Of a DNA stretch of 48,063 nucleotides, positions 32,429 through 41,832 are shown one piece after another. A program made the translations under genes and the position numbers. Source of the stretch: Maricaulis sp. (GTDB lineage: Bacteria > Pseudomonadota > Alphaproteobacteria > Caulobacterales > Maricaulaceae); assembly GCA_029251785.1 (NCBI GenBank), contig JAQXCQ010000096.1, positions 1 through 48,063 of the forward strand, written 5' to 3'. Below the pieces are notes generated by a model, which had not been told where the DNA came from, did no database searches, and saw only the letters and a program-made list of their open reading frames with translations. Each line of letters starts with the position of its first letter. The stretch's first letter is position 1.

Positions 32429-32625
32429 CGATACTCTCCATAAACGAATGCTGGCGCGAATACCTATTGGCTCGAGACGCGCCCGATTTGGGTGCTTGGC
32501 TAGGTGATGTTTAACGAGGTGGCGAGTCCGTTAACTCCGATTTGTGACGAGCGGACCGGATTAAGGGATGAATGACCTGGGCCGATGTGCTTGTCTCGGT
32601 GGATTGTTCGCGCGTACATGTTGGG

Positions 32626-33180
32626 ATGACCGATACAGTTTTCGAATTTGAGTACACGCTGAGTGAAGTGGAACGTGCGGAGTCACACCCGATTGTGTCG
32701 AGGGAGGTTTTCGGCGTGTTCGGGCAGTGGTCTTTCGCGATTGCCCTATTTGCGTGCCTCGCTTCGAGCATTACCGTGGGGCTTGTTCTAATTGATGAGC
32801 CAGGCGTTGCAGTTGCCGAACTCGCGATGAAATTTGTGGTCGTCGGCGTTGTCTCCGCTTTGGTGTTTCATTTTGTCCTGCAGTATTTTTCCGCAAGCGT
32901 TTTGCAGGCACGGCAAAAAGACTTTGCGCGCGGACAAATGACCCGAATGACTATCGACCAGACCGGTATCAGCGTTGAGCGGGGAAAAAGCACAAGTGTG
33001 ATGTCATGGCAGGACGTCCTGACCGTTTCGGAGCGGCAAGGCTGGATTGTTTTGGCGTTGGCCCCGGCTGCGTATGTCCTGCCTGAGCGCTTGTTTGAGA
33101 ATGCCGATAAACGCGAATTGGCGATCGAGCGGTTTACGGCCTGGCATAAAGCGGCCGGGGCCCCGGGGCCCTGGGGATAG
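32626..33180 (+). CDS. YcxB-like membrane protein
   Basis: Predicted inner-membrane protein of 184 residues from the ATG at 32626, with FEFEYTLSEVERAE first, two hydrophobic helices (about 37-56 and 68-88) and a soluble C-terminal domain. That domain (TIDQTGISVERGKSTSVMSWQDV, read in parts) looks like the YcxB-like C-terminal family. Function unknown. A start at 32572 would add 18 residues of no clear kind. It sits between the NTF2 operon (divergent) and rbfA. Confidence 0.65.
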   Translation: MTDTVFEFEYTLSEVERAESHPIVSREVFGVFGQWSFAIALFACLASSITVGLVLIDEPGVAVAELAMKFVVVGVVSALVFHFVLQYFSASVLQARQKDFARGQMTRMTIDQTGISVERGKSTSVMSWQDVLTVSERQGWIVLALAPAAYVLPERLFENADKRELAIERFTAWHKAAGAPGPWG

Positions 33181-35033: not shown

Positions 35034-37154
35034 ATGTTCGATATACACACAGAGACGATGGAGTGGGCAGGACGCACACTCACAATCGAAACCGGGCGCG
35101 TAGCCCGTCAGGCAACAGGTTCCGTAATGGTAACCTATGGCGACACAATTGTGCTCGCGACAGCCGTTGGTATGAAAACGGCCAAGCCGGGAATGGATTT
35201 TTTCCCGCTGACCGTGAACTACCAGGAAAAAACTTACGCAGCCGGAAAAATCCCGGGTGGCTTCTTCAAGCGTGAAGGCCGCCCGTCGGAAAAAGAGACG
35301 CTTACATCGCGCCTCATTGACCGTCCGATCCGTCCGCTCTTCCTGAAGGGTTTCAAAAACGACACCCAGGTGATGATCACCGTTGTCCAGCATGATCTGG
35401 AAAACGACCCTGATGTGCTCGGCATGATTGGCGCTTCTGCAGCGTTGACCTTGTCCGGCCTGCCATTCATGGGTCCGATCGGTGGCGCACGCGTCGCATA
35501 CATTGATGGCGACTACGTCATCAACCCGACGGAAGACGAGAAAAAAGAGAGCGATCTCGAGCTCATGGTCGCTGGCACACAAGATGCCGTGATGATGGTT
35601 GAGTCGCAGGCGAAAGAACTGTCCGAGGAAATTATGCTCGGCGCGGTTATGGCCGGTCATGAAGCCATGCAGCCGGTGATCGACATGATCATCAAGCTGG
35701 CCGAAAAAGCCGCCAAAGAACCTTGGGACGTCACAGCAGAAGACCTTTCTGCTGAGGAAGCTCAGGTTCGCAAGCTGGTCGAAAAAGATCTGGTTGCTGC
35801 CTATAAGAACGTCGATAAGAGCCTGCGCTCTGCGGCGATCAGTGAAGCCAAGGCGAAAGCCATGGATAAACTGGCCGCTTCCGAAGACAACCCTGATGGC
35901 ATCCCAAGCAACACTCTTGGAAGCGCGTTCAAGGCTGTTGAAGCTTCCATCGTTCGCGGTGGCATCATCAAGACCGGCAAGCGAATCGATGGCCGTGATC
36001 TAGACACAGTTCGTCCGATCCTTGGCGAAGTTGGCATGCTGCCACGCACACACGGTTCTGCCCTGTTCACACGCGGTGAAACGCAGTCCATGTGTGTCGC
36101 AACATTGGGTACAGGCGAAGATGAGCAATTCATCGACGATCTGACCGGAACGTTCAAAGAGCGCTTCCTGTTGCACTACAACTTCCCACCATATTCCGTT
36201 GGTGAGACCTCTTTCCGTCTGGCTCCAGGCCGTCGCGAAATCGGTCACGGCAAGCTGGCATGGCGCGCTCTGAGTGCTGTTCTGCCAACCGCCGAGGAAT
36301 TCCCATACACAATCCGTCTCGTGTCCGAGATCACCGAGTCAAACGGTTCGTCTTCCATGGCGACAGTTTGCGGTTGCTCCCTGGCCATGATGGATGCGGG
36401 AGTTCCGATCACACGTCCGGTTTCTGGTATTGCCATGGGCCTGATCAAGGATCCTGAAGGCATGGCCGTATTGTCTGATATCCTGGGTGATGAAGATCAT
36501 CTTGGCGATATGGACTTCAAGGTTGCCGGTACATCCGAGGGCATTACGTCCCTGCAGATGGACATCAAGATCGCTGGCATCACCAAGGACATCATGCACA
36601 CCGCTCTGGAACAAGCCAAAGCCGGTCGCTTGCATATCCTTGATGAAATGGCCAAGGCGCTTGACGAAACCCGTGAAGAGCTGGGCGAATTTGCTCCACG
36701 CATCGAAACGATCACGATTCCGGTCGACAAGATCCGGGACGTGATTGGTACAGGCGGTAAAGTGATCCGTGAGATCGTCGCCACTACCGGTGCAAAGGTC
36801 GACGTCAATGACGAAGGCGTGATCAAAGTTTCATCTTCCGATGGTGCTTCGATCAAGGCAGCCCTGGACTGGATCCACGGTCTGACGGCCGAGCCTGAAG
36901 CCGGCAAGATCTACAAGGGGAAAATCGTCAAGGTCATGGACTTTGGTGCTTTCGTAAACTTCTTCGGACCCAAGGACGGCCTCGTCCACGTGTCTCAGTT
37001 GAAGAGTGAACGCGTCAATCACCCATCCGACGTTGTCAAAGAAGGCGACGAAGTCTGGGTCAAGCTCCTCGGCTTTGATGATCGCGGCAAGGTTCGCCTG
37101 TCGATGAAAGTTGTCGACCAGGAAACTGGCGAAGAGGCCACTGAAGACGCATAG
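35034..37154 (+). CDS. pnp: Polyribonucleotide nucleotidyltransferase (PNPase)
   Basis: 3'-5' phosphorolytic exoribonuclease of the RNA degradosome, 706 residues. Two RNase PH domains (~5-215 and ~315-545) are joined by an all-alpha linker. A KH domain (~550-615, [19 protein letters not shown]) and an S1 domain (~620-690, [17 protein letters not shown]) close it. Codon choice here and in rpsO is more even at third positions than in the flanks, as expected of highly expressed genes. It ends at the terminator at 37179. Confidence 0.97.
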
Positions 37155-37225: not shown

Positions 37226-38119
37226 CTAAGTCCGCTTGGCGGGCATGGTCTTGCTCAGGCGTTCAAGTGCGGCTGATGCAAAGCGACGGGAAACCGGGAC
37301 CTTCTCGTCGCTGCCCGCAAGCGTCAGTACATAACCCTGGGCATTTCCGGAAGTTCGGGTCACCCGTTCAGGATTGACCGCCCAGGAGCGGTGGGTTTGT
37401 AGCAAGCCAAGCGAAGCAGTTTGCTGCAGGAGTGATCGCATGGGCAGGCGCAGTAATTCCGTACGGGCTGGCTGCCCCTTCACGCCCAGGCAAATTTCAC
37501 AATAATTTTGGCGAGAGCGCACATGCAGCAGAATGCTGGCGGACAGGGTGCGGGGGTCACCATTTTCTGGGGTGATCAGCGCGGTCGCGCCCGATGTGTC
37601 CGTTTGCCCCGGTTCAGTCTTGCGAATGGCGAGGCCTTGCTGAAACTCTGCGAGTTCCCGGACCGACCGTCTGAGCTGATGATTTTCCGACAGGAAGACA
37701 TCGAGAATGATCGGGACGCTGGCTCCCATCGCCGTCAGGGCGATGGTCTGGAGCAGGATGGCGGGTGTCATTACCACCATTGAGCGCACGGCGAGGACAA
37801 TCAGAATGGCAATCGCGATAAGGCAGACATGGGCTATGTAAAACAGGATGGCCCGGCCCACAGTCCAGTTTTGATCATCGACCAAAACGGCCATTCCGAC
37901 ACGCAGGCTCGCGCTGGCGGTAAAACAGGCGAGGGCGGTTTGAAGGGCGAATTCCCGGCCTGCTGGTGTTGGGTTCATCATTGCCATCGCAATGATGCCA
38001 CCGATTGTAAACAGGAGCAGCGGCGCGGTTTCGGTCAACCATCCACGCCACAGCGGGAAGGGGCGCTTCAGACGTTCCCGGGAAGCAGCCCAGCGCGATT
38101 GTCCTGTCTGGTCAGCCAA
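37226..38119 (-). CDS. Membrane-anchored LytTR-family transcriptional regulator (1)
   Basis: Predicted inner-membrane transcription factor of 297 residues. About four hydrophobic helices lie at 32-48, 57-80, 88-110 and 116-140. A short linker leads to a LytTR DNA-binding domain at about 190-288, with ILLHVRSRQNYCEI, LLQTHRSWAVNPERV and VPVSRRF. There is no receiver domain, so it is a one-component type. The start is a TTG at 38119, since no ATG or GTG lies in frame nearby. AGGGA 9 bases upstream serves as its ribosome site, and it overlaps the first of two operator-like repeats. Divergent from the 4-TM gene at 38220. Confidence 0.84.
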   Translation of the reverse strand: MADQTGQSRWAASRERLKRPFPLWRGWLTETAPLLLFTIGGIIAMAMMNPTPAGREFALQTALACFTASASLRVGMAVLVDDQNWTVGRAILFYIAHVCLIAIAILIVLAVRSMVVMTPAILLQTIALTAMGASVPIILDVFLSENHQLRRSVRELAEFQQGLAIRKTEPGQTDTSGATALITPENGDPRTLSASILLHVRSRQNYCEICLGVKGQPARTELLRLPMRSLLQQTASLGLLQTHRSWAVNPERVTRTSGNAQGYVLTLAGSDEKVPVSRRFASAALERLSKTMPAKRT

Positions 38120-38121
38120 TA

Positions 38122-38152
38122 CCGTTCGTCCCTGAAAGCAGCCATTCGTCCC
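38122..38152. promoter_or_regulatory. Candidate LytTR operator: two direct repeats, 20-bp period
   Basis: CCGTTCGTCCC (38122-38132) and CCATTCGTCCC (38142-38152) are direct repeats differing at one base and exactly 20 bp apart. The first with its left neighbour, ACCGTTCGT, fits the published LytTR consensus [TA][AC][CA]GTTN[AG][TG] at all nine positions; the second fits seven. A looser copy, TTCGACCC, lies at 38159-38166. The site is between two divergent genes, 3 bases before one start and 68 before the other. The first half also contains the ribosome site of the minus-strand gene. Confidence 0.55.
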
Positions 38153-38219
38153 GATGTGTTCGACCCTAGGGGTGTTTGCCCGGAAACAGGAGGGGAATTG
38201 TTTTGAGAGAGGAATAGCA

Positions 38220-38636
38220 ATGAGACGGACTTTTATCGGAATTTACGGTTTCGCCCTGATGACCATTCTGGCTATGGCGGGGTACCATTTTTATCTGCCA
38301 ACTCACATGCATTGGGCGGAGGGTATGGTCGACGCGCCTGTTATGCTCCGGTGGGCTCTGGATGCGTTGAATTATTTGTGGAGCCTGGTGACACTATGCT
38401 TCGCCGGGTTGATGGTGCTGTATCTTCGCAAACCACGTATTGACGCCAGAGCCAAACGATTGGCGAGCAATATGTTCTGTATCTATTGGGTGTTACATGC
38501 GGTGTTTTTGTATTTTTACCCACCCGCTTTGCCTCCACACCTGCAGTGGATTCCGATGCTATTCCTGATCTTCCCATTGGCTAATGTTGGGATGTTGTCG
38601 CTGGGTAACTGGATTTTCCGTGAAGAGACAGCCTGA
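38220..38636 (+). CDS. Small four-helix membrane protein in the LytTR module
   Basis: I do not recognise the family. 138 residues with four hydrophobic helices at about 5-24, 45-68, 83-100 and 109-127, and a basic loop (RKPRIDARAKR) after the second. GAGAGGA precedes the ATG by 7 bases, and that fixes the start. It stands between the two LytTR regulators, divergent from one and ending 3 bases from the stop of the other. By analogy with LytTR regulator/membrane-inhibitor pairs of firmicutes, it could be a partner of one regulator; this is inference. Confidence 0.72.
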   Translation: MRRTFIGIYGFALMTILAMAGYHFYLPTHMHWAEGMVDAPVMLRWALDALNYLWSLVTLCFAGLMVLYLRKPRIDARAKRLASNMFCIYWVLHAVFLYFYPPALPPHLQWIPMLFLIFPLANVGMLSLGNWIFREETA

Positions 38637-38639
38637 CCG

Positions 38640-39518
38640 TCAGGCGGCTTCGAGCCGGTCGCGATAGCGTCGGCTGCCCGGGATCGTATCGCCACTGGTG
38701 AGCGTGATGGAGACATCGCCTTCACCGGTGGGTTCGATCTGGCTAACCAGGTCGCGATTGACCAGCCACGACCTGTGCACACGAATGGCAGGAATCGAGG
38801 CCTCGCAGAGCAGGGTTTCGAGTTGAGCGAGGGTCATGCGGGCAAGGTGATCGCCATTGCCGAAGCGGGCTTCGACATAATTGCCGGCAGATTTGGCGGA
38901 GACGAAGTCTTCCGCGGCCAATAACATTATTCGGCCGCCACATTTTAACGTGATCCGGTGAGAAACCTTCGCTTCGCTGCGCGCCATGCGGAGTTCGAGA
39001 TGGGCGCGTTCCAGTGACCGGATATTGCCCAGGATAATTTGATAGGCCGCGTAGGACATGGCCTGTTTGCGCATCTCGTAGACGTAATTGTCAAAAACCT
39101 CGGCACCCCAGCTATAGTCCGCGTCAAACAAAACCGGCCACAGAATGTCTCTCGACCCGTACATGAGCACGATTTGAAGTGAGCCATAGGCCAATAATCC
39201 GGCGGTATGAATCGGAATAGATGAGCGAAGGCGGCCCGGTTCTATCGGAAAACGGTGACCGAGCCAGAGTGCGATCGGAAGGCTGACCAGCATGGCCAGG
39301 ATCGCGCTGCCCTCGAGCACCCAGGCGTAGAGGGCGGGACTGTTTGCGCCAGACCAGCCGAGCTCTGTTGAGACTGATAGCGCGTTGACGATGTAGAACG
39401 CTAGAATGAGACCGACCGATCCGATCGACGCTTTCAACAAGACCCGTCGATCGGTTTCACGCTCAGAGGTTCCGAGGGTGAGCGGTTCGGTTTCTGGTGG
39501 GGCCGGGTTAATATTCAT
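38640..39518 (-). CDS. Membrane-anchored LytTR-family transcriptional regulator (2)
   Basis: Predicted inner-membrane transcription factor of 292 residues from the ATG at 39518. Hydrophobic helices at about 30-50, 64-86 and 102-120, possibly one more at 153-165. A LytTR domain follows at about 188-290: EDFVSAKSAGNYVEARF, IRVHRSWLVNRDLVSQI and IPGSRRYRDRL. The HRSW and SRR(F/Y) positions match its neighbour at 37226, but the membrane parts differ, so they are distant paralogues or members of one family. An upstream TTG at 39566 is possible; no good ribosome site is seen for either. Divergent from the acyltransferase. Confidence 0.84.
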   Translation of the reverse strand: MNINPAPPETEPLTLGTSERETDRRVLLKASIGSVGLILAFYIVNALSVSTELGWSGANSPALYAWVLEGSAILAMLVSLPIALWLGHRFPIEPGRLRSSIPIHTAGLLAYGSLQIVLMYGSRDILWPVLFDADYSWGAEVFDNYVYEMRKQAMSYAAYQIILGNIRSLERAHLELRMARSEAKVSHRITLKCGGRIMLLAAEDFVSAKSAGNYVEARFGNGDHLARMTLAQLETLLCEASIPAIRVHRSWLVNRDLVSQIEPTGEGDVSITLTSGDTIPGSRRYRDRLEAA

Positions 39519-39575
39519 GGTGTGATAATGACGTGATGCCACCTTGTTGGAAATAGCGTCTCTCAAAATCTAATC

Positions 39576-39646
39576 GAAGTCGTCCCCGCTCACCGCCGTT
39601 TGTCCCTCGAGCGCAGTTTTCGCCCCGCCGGGCCACGGTTTGGCCC
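39576..39646. promoter_or_regulatory. Candidate LytTR operator array: four direct repeats, 20-bp period
   Basis: Four 11-base words start exactly 20 bases apart: GAAGTCGTCCC (39576), CCGTTTGTCCC (39596), GTTTTCGCCCC (39616), CGGTTTGGCCC (39636). The second differs by one base from the repeat at 38122. Against the LytTR consensus, the second and fourth words (with one base to the left) each fit eight of nine positions; the first and third are weaker. A TTAAAT at 39659 could be the -10 of the acyltransferase gene. The last copy overlaps an inverted repeat (CGGGCCA/TGGCCCG, 39629-39647) that might explain part of it. Confidence 0.5.
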
Positions 39647-39706
39647 GTGTCGGTGGTGTTAAATGTGAGATGGGTGAATTTGGTCGGGCCAGACCGGAGA
39701 GACTTT

Positions 39707-40909
39707 ATGACACACGCTGCGAACGATTCCACACACACCCGCCGTTATGACCTCGATTGGCTCAGGATTATCGCGTTTGGGCTTCTTATTTTCTATCACA
39801 TCGGGATGTTCTTCAATTCCTTTGGGTGGCACGCCAAGAGCGTGAATATGAGTGACAGTATTGATGCCTATATGATGCTGAGCAGCCCGTGGCGCTTGCC
39901 GCTGCTGTTCTTTATATCCGGCGTCGCCATTCGATTTTTGTCCGACAAGCTTGGATCAGTCGGATTCGCCGGTGACCGATTTGTTCGCCTGTTTCCGGTT
40001 ATTTTGTTTGCGGTGTTTGTGATTGTACCACCGCAGACCTATGCCGAAGTTATTGGCACCGGGCAGTATGAGGGGAGCTTTTGGGGATTCTACCAACATT
40101 ATGCCGGCGAAATTGGCGGCCCGTGGACGATGATTACGCCAACCTATAATCATCTTTGGTACGTGGTGTACCTGTTCTTGTATTCGCTTCTGCTGGCCCC
40201 GTTATTCCCGCTGCTTCGCTGGATTGCGGATAGTGGTGCGATGCGGGCAGTCGGGGCCTTGTTCGACAAGCCGGTTCTTGGCCCACTGCTGATGATCGCC
40301 CTGCCGGCACTGCCGTTTCTGGCGATCCGCTTCACGCTCTCAATGGACTACCCGACGACCCACGCGCTCTGTGATGACTGGGCCAATCATGCCAACTCGC
40401 TGACTATTTTGGTGATGGGCTTTCTGTTTGCGAAGAATGACATTTTGTGGCGCGCGGTCGATCGTGTCTTGCCGTGGGCGGGCACTTTGACGGTTGCTTC
40501 GATCGCGTTTTTGTTCGTCGTGTATTCCAATTTGGAATGGTTTGAGAATGATACATTGGCGCTGATCGCGCGTGTTGATCGTATTGTTTACGCCTGGGCG
40601 ATCATTCTCACCTTGCTGGGGTTGGCTCGGAAATTCCTGACAGGTGACGGTCCGCTGCGGCGCTATCTGACCCAGGCGATCTTTCCCTATTACATCCTCC
40701 ACCAGACAATCATTGTGTCTGTCGGGTTTGCCATTCGCGACATGGGCCTGGATGTCTGGACTGAGTTTGGGGTGATTGTTGTGGCGACGGTTCTGGGTTG
40801 CGGACTGGGTTATGAAGCGTTGCGGCGTGTACCCGTATTGAGATCACTGATGGGGTTGAAATGGGGTCAGACCAAGCCCCCGGCACCGATATCCCAACTG
40901 GCCGAATAG
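39707..40909 (+). CDS. Acyltransferase family 3 membrane protein
   Basis: Predicted inner-membrane O-acyltransferase of 400 residues with about ten helices. The family's N-terminal pattern RYDLDWLRIIAFGLLIFYH includes the probable catalytic His31. The C-terminal helices (PYYILHQTIIVSVGFAI) are of the AT3/OpgC kind. Targets of such enzymes are glycans, lipids or osmoregulated glucans; which one is not shown. GGAGAG precedes the ATG at 39707, and a longer frame back to 39647 is rejected. The candidate LytTR array lies 60-130 bases upstream. Confidence 0.88.
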   Translation: MTHAANDSTHTRRYDLDWLRIIAFGLLIFYHIGMFFNSFGWHAKSVNMSDSIDAYMMLSSPWRLPLLFFISGVAIRFLSDKLGSVGFAGDRFVRLFPVILFAVFVIVPPQTYAEVIGTGQYEGSFWGFYQHYAGEIGGPWTMITPTYNHLWYVVYLFLYSLLLAPLFPLLRWIADSGAMRAVGALFDKPVLGPLLMIALPALPFLAIRFTLSMDYPTTHALCDDWANHANSLTILVMGFLFAKNDILWRAVDRVLPWAGTLTVASIAFLFVVYSNLEWFENDTLALIARVDRIVYAWAIILTLLGLARKFLTGDGPLRRYLTQAIFPYYILHQTIIVSVGFAIRDMGLDVWTEFGVIVVATVLGCGLGYEALRRVPVLRSLMGLKWGQTKPPAPISQLAE

Positions 40910-40968: not shown

Positions 40969-41781
40969 CTATTCGTCGTCCATGCTTGGCACGGCGACGG
41001 CATGGAAGCCGCAATCGACGTGGTGCGTTTCACCTGTGCAGGAGGTGCCCAGGGAGGACAGTAAATAGAGCGCGGCACCGGCCACACCTTCCATTTGAGT
41101 GTCCTGTTTCATCATCGACCATTCGCGGCCGGTGCGCATCAGGCCCTTGCCGCCGGAAATGCCGGCCATGGCGAGGGTGCGCATGGGGCCAGCAGACAGC
41201 GCGTTGACGCGGATGTTTGATGGGCCGAGATCGCGGGCCATATAGCGTGTGGAGGCTTCCAGGGCGGCCTTGGCAACGCCCATGACATTGTAGGACGGCA
41301 CAACGCGTTCCGAGCCAAGATATGTCAGAGTGATCATTGATCCGCCATCCGTCATCAGACGAGAGGCGCGCTTACCTGCATCGACGAAGGAGAAGGCCGA
41401 GATTTCCATGGCGCGGCTCCAGCCTTCGCGCGTGGTATTCTCTGTGAAGGAGCCAACCAGTTCGTCCTTGCCAGCAAAAGCAATCGCGTGGACGAGGAAG
41501 TCAATCTTGCCCCATTTGTCTTCCAGGGCCTGAAAACACGCGTCCATGGACGCGTCGTCAGTGACGTCAGCTTCAACCATGAAGGGATCGCCGCCGAGGC
41601 TTTCGACTAGGGGGCGGACGCGCTTTTCAACGGCGCCCTGGTAGGAAAACGCCATCTCGGCGCCCTGGGCAGCCAATTGCTGGGCGATACCCCAGGCAAT
41701 GGAATTCTTGTTGGCAACACCCATTACAAGCCCGCGCTTGCCTTTCATCAGGTCGCCCTTGGGGAAAATTGTATCACTCAT
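40969..41781 (-). CDS. fabI: Enoyl-ACP reductase FabI
   Basis: Last step of each fatty-acid elongation cycle, NADH-dependent. 270 residues from 41781. The nucleotide site is GLVMGVANKNSIAWG, and the active-site residues are Y154, Y164 and K171 in LTYLGSERVVPSYNVMGVAK. Two ATGs stand in tandem at 41784 and 41781; the second has the better distance (7) from AGGAG. It is the third gene of fabA-fabB-fabI, an order found in many alphaproteobacteria. It is the expected target of triclosan-type inhibitors. Confidence 0.95.
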   Translation of the reverse strand: MSDTIFPKGDLMKGKRGLVMGVANKNSIAWGIAQQLAAQGAEMAFSYQGAVEKRVRPLVESLGGDPFMVEADVTDDASMDACFQALEDKWGKIDFLVHAIAFAGKDELVGSFTENTTREGWSRAMEISAFSFVDAGKRASRLMTDGGSMITLTYLGSERVVPSYNVMGVAKAALEASTRYMARDLGPSNIRVNALSAGPMRTLAMAGISGGKGLMRTGREWSMMKQDTQMEGVAGAALYLLSSLGTSCTGETHHVDCGFHAVAVPSMDDE

Positions 41782-41832
41782 CATATGGCTCCTCGCCGTT
41801 GATGCCGATGGTCCGGTGTGTGGACGTTCAGG

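Follow-up and report, generated by a model that had tools for sequence, protein, structure and literature searches.

LytTR proteins with described binding sites provide the background against which the present locus can be judged. In Pseudomonas aeruginosa, AlgR is a two-component response regulator of the LytTR family whose sites are scattered; at algD, sites RB1 and RB2 read CCGTTCGTC and site RB3 reads CCGTTTGTC (PMC4064291). CoxC of Afipia carboxidovorans, a membrane-bound LytTR protein with an MHYT sensor domain, requires three direct repeats, 18–21 bp apart, of the word TTNNNGCN and represses the cox genes (PMC11347149). In the LytTR Regulatory Systems (LRS), of which HdrRM and BrsRM are examples, the repeats lie mostly 10 bp before a -35 and feedback is positive (PMC6193735). 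HigX of Caulobacter crescentus combines a predicted four-helix membrane domain with a LytTR domain, and the motif reported for it is an inverted repeat; the main text of that paper contains neither "acyltransferase" nor "direct repeat" (PMC13384398).

Direct-repeat operators of LytTR proteins are, then, already known. What is new here is a phased array of several words, present in several families, between the gene for a probably membrane-bound LytTR protein and the gene for an OpgC-like acyltransferase. No published account of such a module was found among the matches listed in our literature search, which covered titles and the openings of abstracts and left subscription papers mostly outside its scope. 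The targets of membrane-bound LytTR proteins in Alphaproteobacteria are little known, HigX and CoxC being the cases that we found. For this class of regulator the locus would supply an operator defined in sequence, the geometry of a promoter and a partner gene that hardly varies, together with a link to an OpgC-like acyltransferase.

Operator-like words within two divergent gene pairs

The window (the whole stretch of 48,063 nucleotides of Maricaulis sp. DNA that was analyzed) contains two divergent gene pairs, LytTR-1/4-TM and LytTR-2/acyltransferase. Both lie between genes that we take to be pnp (ending at 37154) and fabI (40969–41784, minus strand), names given from inspection of the sequence without a family search. 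Coordinates of the features are collected in Table 1.

Table 1. Features of the pnp–fabI interval and a further candidate site. Positions are those of the window, and the letters of the six words were read from it directly.
Feature	Position	Strand	Sequence	Remarks
LytTR-1	37226..38119	-		PF04397, 32.8 bits, C-terminal LytTR domain; TTG start (38119) uncertain
4-TM protein	38220..38636	+		138 aa; four long helices in predicted model
LytTR-2	38640..39518	-		PF04397, 59.6 bits, C-terminal LytTR domain; putative ATG at 39518
Acyltransferase	39707..40909	+		Acyl_transf_3; putative ATG, upstream GTG at 39647 possible
Doublet of candidate operator words, LytTR-1/4-TM intergenic region	38122..38152	+		Words 38122 and 38142, 20 bp apart
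Word 38122			CCGTTCGTCCC	
Word 38142			CCATTCGTCCC	
Four-word array, LytTR-2/acyltransferase intergenic region	39576..39646	+		Words 39576, 39596, 39616 and 39636, in 20-bp steps
Word 39576			GAAGTCGTCCC	Weak word
Word 39596			CCGTTTGTCCC	
Word 39616			GTTTTCGCCCC	Weak word
Word 39636			CGGTTTGGCCC	
Putative -10 of leaderless LytTR-2 promoter	39525..39530	-	CATTAT	From comparison with relatives
Possible third site	32544..32575	-		Two words 21 bp apart, before YcxB-like ORF; tentative

In LytTR-1 as in LytTR-2, a hydropathy scan places hydropathic segments in the N-terminal half, and on this basis both proteins are probably membrane-bound. The only match of LytTR-2 to a solved structure was 3d6w (E 0.0019); its single-sequence structure model, with a mean pLDDT of 44, was unusable. 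The 4-TM protein belongs to no family in Pfam or NCBIfam. Its model, built from two sequences, has four long helices and a mean pLDDT of 73, and a fold search with this model against solved structures gave no match at E 0.001. We label the acyltransferase as OpgC-like only, because its score against the MdoC/OpgC family (NCBIfam NF003014) is far below the cut-off (75.9 bits; cut-off 338).

Direct reading of the window bore out the positions that the sequence-only reading had given for six related words, the spacing of exactly 20 bp within each region and the single base that separates word 38122 from word 39596. The same reading had several words, extended by one base on the left, fit a LytTR consensus at eight or nine of nine positions: this holds for three of the six words and fails for the other three, the counts being 9, 7, 5, 8, 5 and 8 of nine in window order. 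Against the AlgR core CCGTTCGTC the words match, in the same order, at 9, 8, 5, 8, 5 and 6 of nine positions. Both sets of words are oriented toward the divergent partner genes (acyltransferase and 4-TM) and away from the LytTR promoters. Two caveats raised with the words are also correct. Word 38122 directly precedes the putative LytTR-1 start codon, TTG, in the position expected of a ribosome site, and word 39636 lies within an inverted repeat. This repeat (CGGGCCA-CGGTT-TGGCCCG, 39631–39649), which overlaps the fourth word, is by eye absent from the relatives compared.

The locus resembles AlgR in its core word: word 38122 is identical to RB1/RB2 at nine of nine positions and word 39596 reads as RB3, CCGTTTGTC. 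It differs in arrangement and in the kind of regulator, AlgR being a response regulator with scattered sites, whereas the window has two to four words phased at 20–21 bp and regulators with hydropathic N-terminal halves. CoxC is closer in being an alphaproteobacterial membrane LytTR protein with direct repeats 18–21 bp apart, but its word, its MHYT domain and its repression of the cox genes set it apart (PMC11347149). HigX, also alphaproteobacterial, shares the build of four membrane helices and a LytTR domain; its inverted-repeat motif is unlike the words of the window (PMC13384398).

The pattern is rare. In the 3,155,743 bases of the window's own genome, TTYGTCCC-N12-TTYGTCCC occurs three times with at most one mismatch, each time in one of the two intergenic regions, and the 38122 doublet is the only perfect copy; the genome search proposed as a check on the words was thus passed. 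A 31-bp pattern, with up to three mismatches, likewise occurs at these two places only (one control match). With up to three mismatches the TTYGTCCC doublet is uninformative, giving 64 matches compared to 73 for the reversed control. For each region, the chain score was equalled by none of 5000 shuffles of its own sequence and by none of 60 in which the whole window was shuffled; the matrix used had been seeded with the six words and rebuilt solely from relatives' words at LytTR-2 loci.

Across the 137 genomes of the family there are two perfect doublets, that of the window and one upstream of LytTR-2 in another genome (G080). Of the 33 doublet matches in these genomes, a hand count puts 7 at a LytTR-1 or LytTR-2 locus; the other 26 fall elsewhere, compared to 31 control matches. 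A stricter consensus drawn from the relatives, searched with up to two mismatches in 19 genomes of the genus, gave 20 matches, 14 of them immediately upstream of LytTR-2 (all nine with zero or one mismatch, and five of the 11 with two). The six matches elsewhere, each with two mismatches, compare to eight control matches, and at two mismatches this consensus has no match in the own genome. A large regulon was considered and rejected, there being no excess of sites away from LytTR loci in the own genome, the 137 family genomes or the 19 genomes of the genus. Given that matches away from LytTR loci do not exceed the controls, the circuit looks local.

Rarity also bears on the identity of the protein that binds. 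Beyond LytTR-1 and LytTR-2 the own genome encodes six LytTR domains, eight in all, and such domains are expected to recognize similar words; the words could therefore be sites for another member of this set, or for an unrelated factor, with LytTR-1 and LytTR-2 as mere targets. The matrix was applied to 27 of the 30 given loci that hold the own genome's matches elsewhere, and to the six other LytTR loci (L002–L007). At these six, pairs scoring above 8 occur only in L004 and L006, in both cases downstream of the LytTR domain. Together with the 26 family-genome matches that do not rise above the 31 of the control, and with an array that tracks LytTR-2 in five families and LytTR-1 in its one other genome (see below), this makes a different regulator improbable in our view.

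Conservation of the array beside LytTR-2

LytTR-2 has matches in 51 of the 137 family genomes including its own, that is, in 50 of 136 relatives. All but one of the 50 were taken (a partial match in G033 was excluded), and the removal of two near-duplicate upstream regions, L057 and L066, left 47 loci. When these were scored with a matrix built from the words of the window only, the z of the mean best-pair score was 25.8 at a spacing of 20, 24.8 at 21 and 14.8 at 40; every other spacing in the range 11–39 gave a z between 3.1 and 9.4. Scores on the reverse strand, for spacings of 18–22, were 2.0–2.6, compared to about 15. The expectation that relatives would carry similar words 20 bp apart was thus confirmed at LytTR-2 loci.

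After refinement on the same loci, 45 of the 47 carry at least two words in register, and the commonest steps from word to word are 20, 21 and 20. No convincing array was found at the remaining two, L119 and L121; of the 301 bases of the L121 region, 100 are N. Mean information, calculated over 20 loci with first steps of 20 and 21, is 1.06 bits in the words, 0.65 in the spacers and 0.32 in the flanks, the contrast being inflated because words were chosen by score.

Some of these relatives are close, as the removal of two near-duplicates indicates, and repeats without function might simply have been retained through recent common descent. Yet LytTR-2 from the family set is only 30–56% identical in protein sequence to that of the window, and a matrix that has seen nothing except the words of the window still peaks at 20–21 bp. 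We find this explanation scarcely credible.

Outside the family, LytTR-2 has matches in 73 further genomes of a 398-genome sample of the order (116 less 43, by hand count). Forty loci were fetched from outside the family, one per genome, and scored with a matrix trained within it: 38 outscore every one of 100 shuffles of the region concerned, and at the other two (L145 and L151) the array is not convincing when compared to shuffles. Across the order sample, the array tracks LytTR-2 through five families. The partner gene is nearly constant, a divergent acyltransferase homologue standing beside LytTR-2 at 89 of 90 loci (window and near-duplicates counted), with L151 as the exception. A pnp homologue occurs in the fetched flank of LytTR-2 at 11 of the 90 loci.

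Taken together, conservation, rarity and the nine-of-nine match of word 38122 to the AlgR core strongly support the six words as LytTR-type operators. The sequence-only reading had gone further, with one or both LytTR proteins binding here and controlling themselves and the divergent genes; it is the operator part of that proposal to which this evidence speaks.

Promoter geometry and proposed mode of action

The hexamer CATTAT, the putative -10 of LytTR-2, lies 6 nt before the LytTR-2 ATG and 45 nt from the nearest word. In relatives a -10-like hexamer is often found at about the same distance from the ATG, which suggests that the LytTR-2 transcript is leaderless. A generic promoter scan of the window region did not report this promoter, and its one match lay outside both intergenic regions. 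On the LytTR-2 side, 20 of the 47 family loci have a CTTG that starts 10–12 bp from the proximal word; in the other 27 none was found at that distance. The conserved GCAAG beside the array was at first read as an inverted word; this was dropped in favor of the -35 of LytTR-2 (CTTGC on its own strand), because its distance from the word is constant.

Distances from word to -10 cluster near 25, 35, 45 and 55 nt, and the best period among those scanned is 10.5. With -10s and starts picked by algorithm, cuts set after inspection of the data, and relatives that are not independent, the fit to this period gives R 0.68 (n=49) with a cut on -10 score, 0.66 (n=65) without a cut on -10 quality, and 0.58 for all 85 loci with an array and a start, near-duplicate loci being kept in all three figures. 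Collapsing the loci by genus leaves 20 values, with R 0.54 and a Rayleigh p of about 0.003. Of the 85 loci, 20 were dropped because their distances fell outside 1–109; when the score cut was applied, 25 of the 85 failed it, and 11 of the 60 that passed were then dropped for distance. At 45 and 46 nt, the window and G076, the relative that matches it best, lie about one turn above the 33–35 nt of most other loci of the genus.

On the acyltransferase side, TGG stands 7 nt past the fourth word position in the window and in 15 of the 39 loci that have three or more words; the frequency of TGG is 0.016 per position, and the fourth position was extrapolated where three words were called. Ten of the 15 TGG-bearing loci belong to the genus of the window.

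We think it likely that the words are LytTR operators at which membrane-bound LytTR-1 and LytTR-2 bind and activate their own and the divergent promoters. The LytTR DNA-binding domains would occupy the words as binding sites and, the words being two helical turns apart, would do so on one face of the DNA. Anchored in the membrane, LytTR-2 would sit on two to four words between its own gene and that of the acyltransferase, where it would activate its own promoter (positive autoregulation) and the promoter of the OpgC-like acyltransferase too. LytTR-1 would act likewise through the doublet that it has in common with the 4-TM gene. Since the words point toward the acyltransferase and 4-TM genes, the divergent gene may be the main target. 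The regulator may respond to a signal from the envelope, a guess prompted by the acyltransferase. Both binding and the choice of activation over repression are inferred from the words, their spacing and conservation, the gene order and the phasing.

This arrangement has parallels in the LRS, where the gene for a small membrane protein adjoins that of the regulator and direct repeats lie immediately before the -35 of the promoter that drives the regulator (PMC6193735). A similar position of the repeats is suggested by the relatives, with the CTTG spacing at 20 of 47 LytTR-2 loci. The differences are several. The LRS regulator is soluble and shares an operon with its inhibitor, whereas the regulators of the window look membrane-bound and their partner genes are divergent rather than co-operonic, LytTR-2 being paired with an acyltransferase. 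In addition, the words of the window point away from the LytTR-2 promoter, whereas the published LRS table, as we interpret it, orients them the other way (PMC6193735).

The same operators might serve repression, a LytTR protein keeping the divergent promoter as well as its own silent until a signal at the membrane releases it. CoxC, a membrane LytTR protein, is described as doing so from three direct repeats that overlap a -35 (PMC11347149). The nearest word does end just 24–26 nt before the -10 in 10 of the 65 loci, close to the site of a -35; moreover, the LytTR-1 doublet of the window abuts the putative start codon, and in the second genome that carries this pair one word contains the ATG. 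At 53 of the 65 loci, however, the array ends at least 33 nt before the predicted -10, roughly 10 bp or more before a -35 at the standard spacing, and for a helically phased array at such a distance, contact with RNA polymerase fits better than blocking. We consider repression unlikely and activation the better account. That CoxC represses, and that the motif of HigX differs, indicates that neither activation nor the word is general for proteins of this kind.

The LytTR-1/4-TM pair and probable cross-regulation

Among the 137 family genomes, LytTR-1 together with the 4-TM gene occurs in the own genome and in one other (G030). Across the order sample of 398 genomes the 4-TM gene is present in two, divergent to LytTR-1 in both. 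When genome contigs were scanned with the 4-TM alignment a single locus was found, L123, in a MAG of Hyphobacterium sp., a genus that NCBI places in the Maricaulaceae, Maricaulales. This locus contains the 1363 bases of the G030 pair (L099) exactly, and the pair of G030, L099 and L123 also sits between fabI and pnp. The pnp–fabI interval is thus a repeated host of divergent LytTR pairs: LytTR-1/4-TM in the Hyphobacterium MAG and both pairs in the window.

In G030 the 4-TM protein is 37% and LytTR-1 30% identical to the counterpart in the window. A 20-bp doublet nevertheless lies between the two genes, with one word including the ATG of LytTR-1, and its score was reached by none of 5000 shuffles. 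This bears on the possibility that the array at 39576–39646 is a LytTR-2 operator and the 38122 doublet a chance likeness or part of a ribosome-binding region, as the restriction of the pair to two genomes and the ribosome-site position of word 38122 might suggest. Such an origin is very hard to reconcile with the sole perfect doublet of the genome, and with window and G030 scores that no shuffle attained although the proteins are only 30–37% identical; we give it little chance.

Outside the own genome the two LytTR pairs never co-occur in the family. None of the 50 relatives with a LytTR-2 match has a match to LytTR-1, and G030, which is 88% complete and has six LytTR domains, contains no match to LytTR-2 at 1e-15. 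The word is retained beside either pair in the absence of the other, and cross-talk is therefore to be expected where both meet. Both pairs of the window use the same word, so each LytTR protein probably acts on the operator of the other here. Cross-regulation between LytTR-1 and LytTR-2 in the own genome is thus probable, and co-regulation of the two pairs as one regulon a fair prediction; in the LRS, two systems co-regulate each other (PMC6193735).

On a broader view, which we offer tentatively and with rather less than even confidence, the five families would share an old module built on a bidirectional promoter. A membrane-anchored LytTR protein would keep this promoter at the inner membrane by means of a phased AlgR-type array, driving itself and an envelope acyltransferase. 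Here a second module, LytTR/4-TM, would have joined it with the same word in the same pnp–fabI interval, making two cross-wired membrane switches.

Two further word pairs were noted. The possible third site of the window (Table 1) has a chain score of 18.0, above all 60 window shuffles, the largest of which reached 14.6. The YcxB-like ORF behind it starts at 32572 or 32626 and ends at 33180; its Pfam score of 20.9 is under the cut-off of 23.3, and its protein has no match at 1e-5 in the 136 other family genomes. The second pair lies elsewhere in the own genome, at 1419–1450 of L004, where two words 21 bp apart, scoring 16.5, stand just downstream of another of the LytTR genes and before a convergent ORF.
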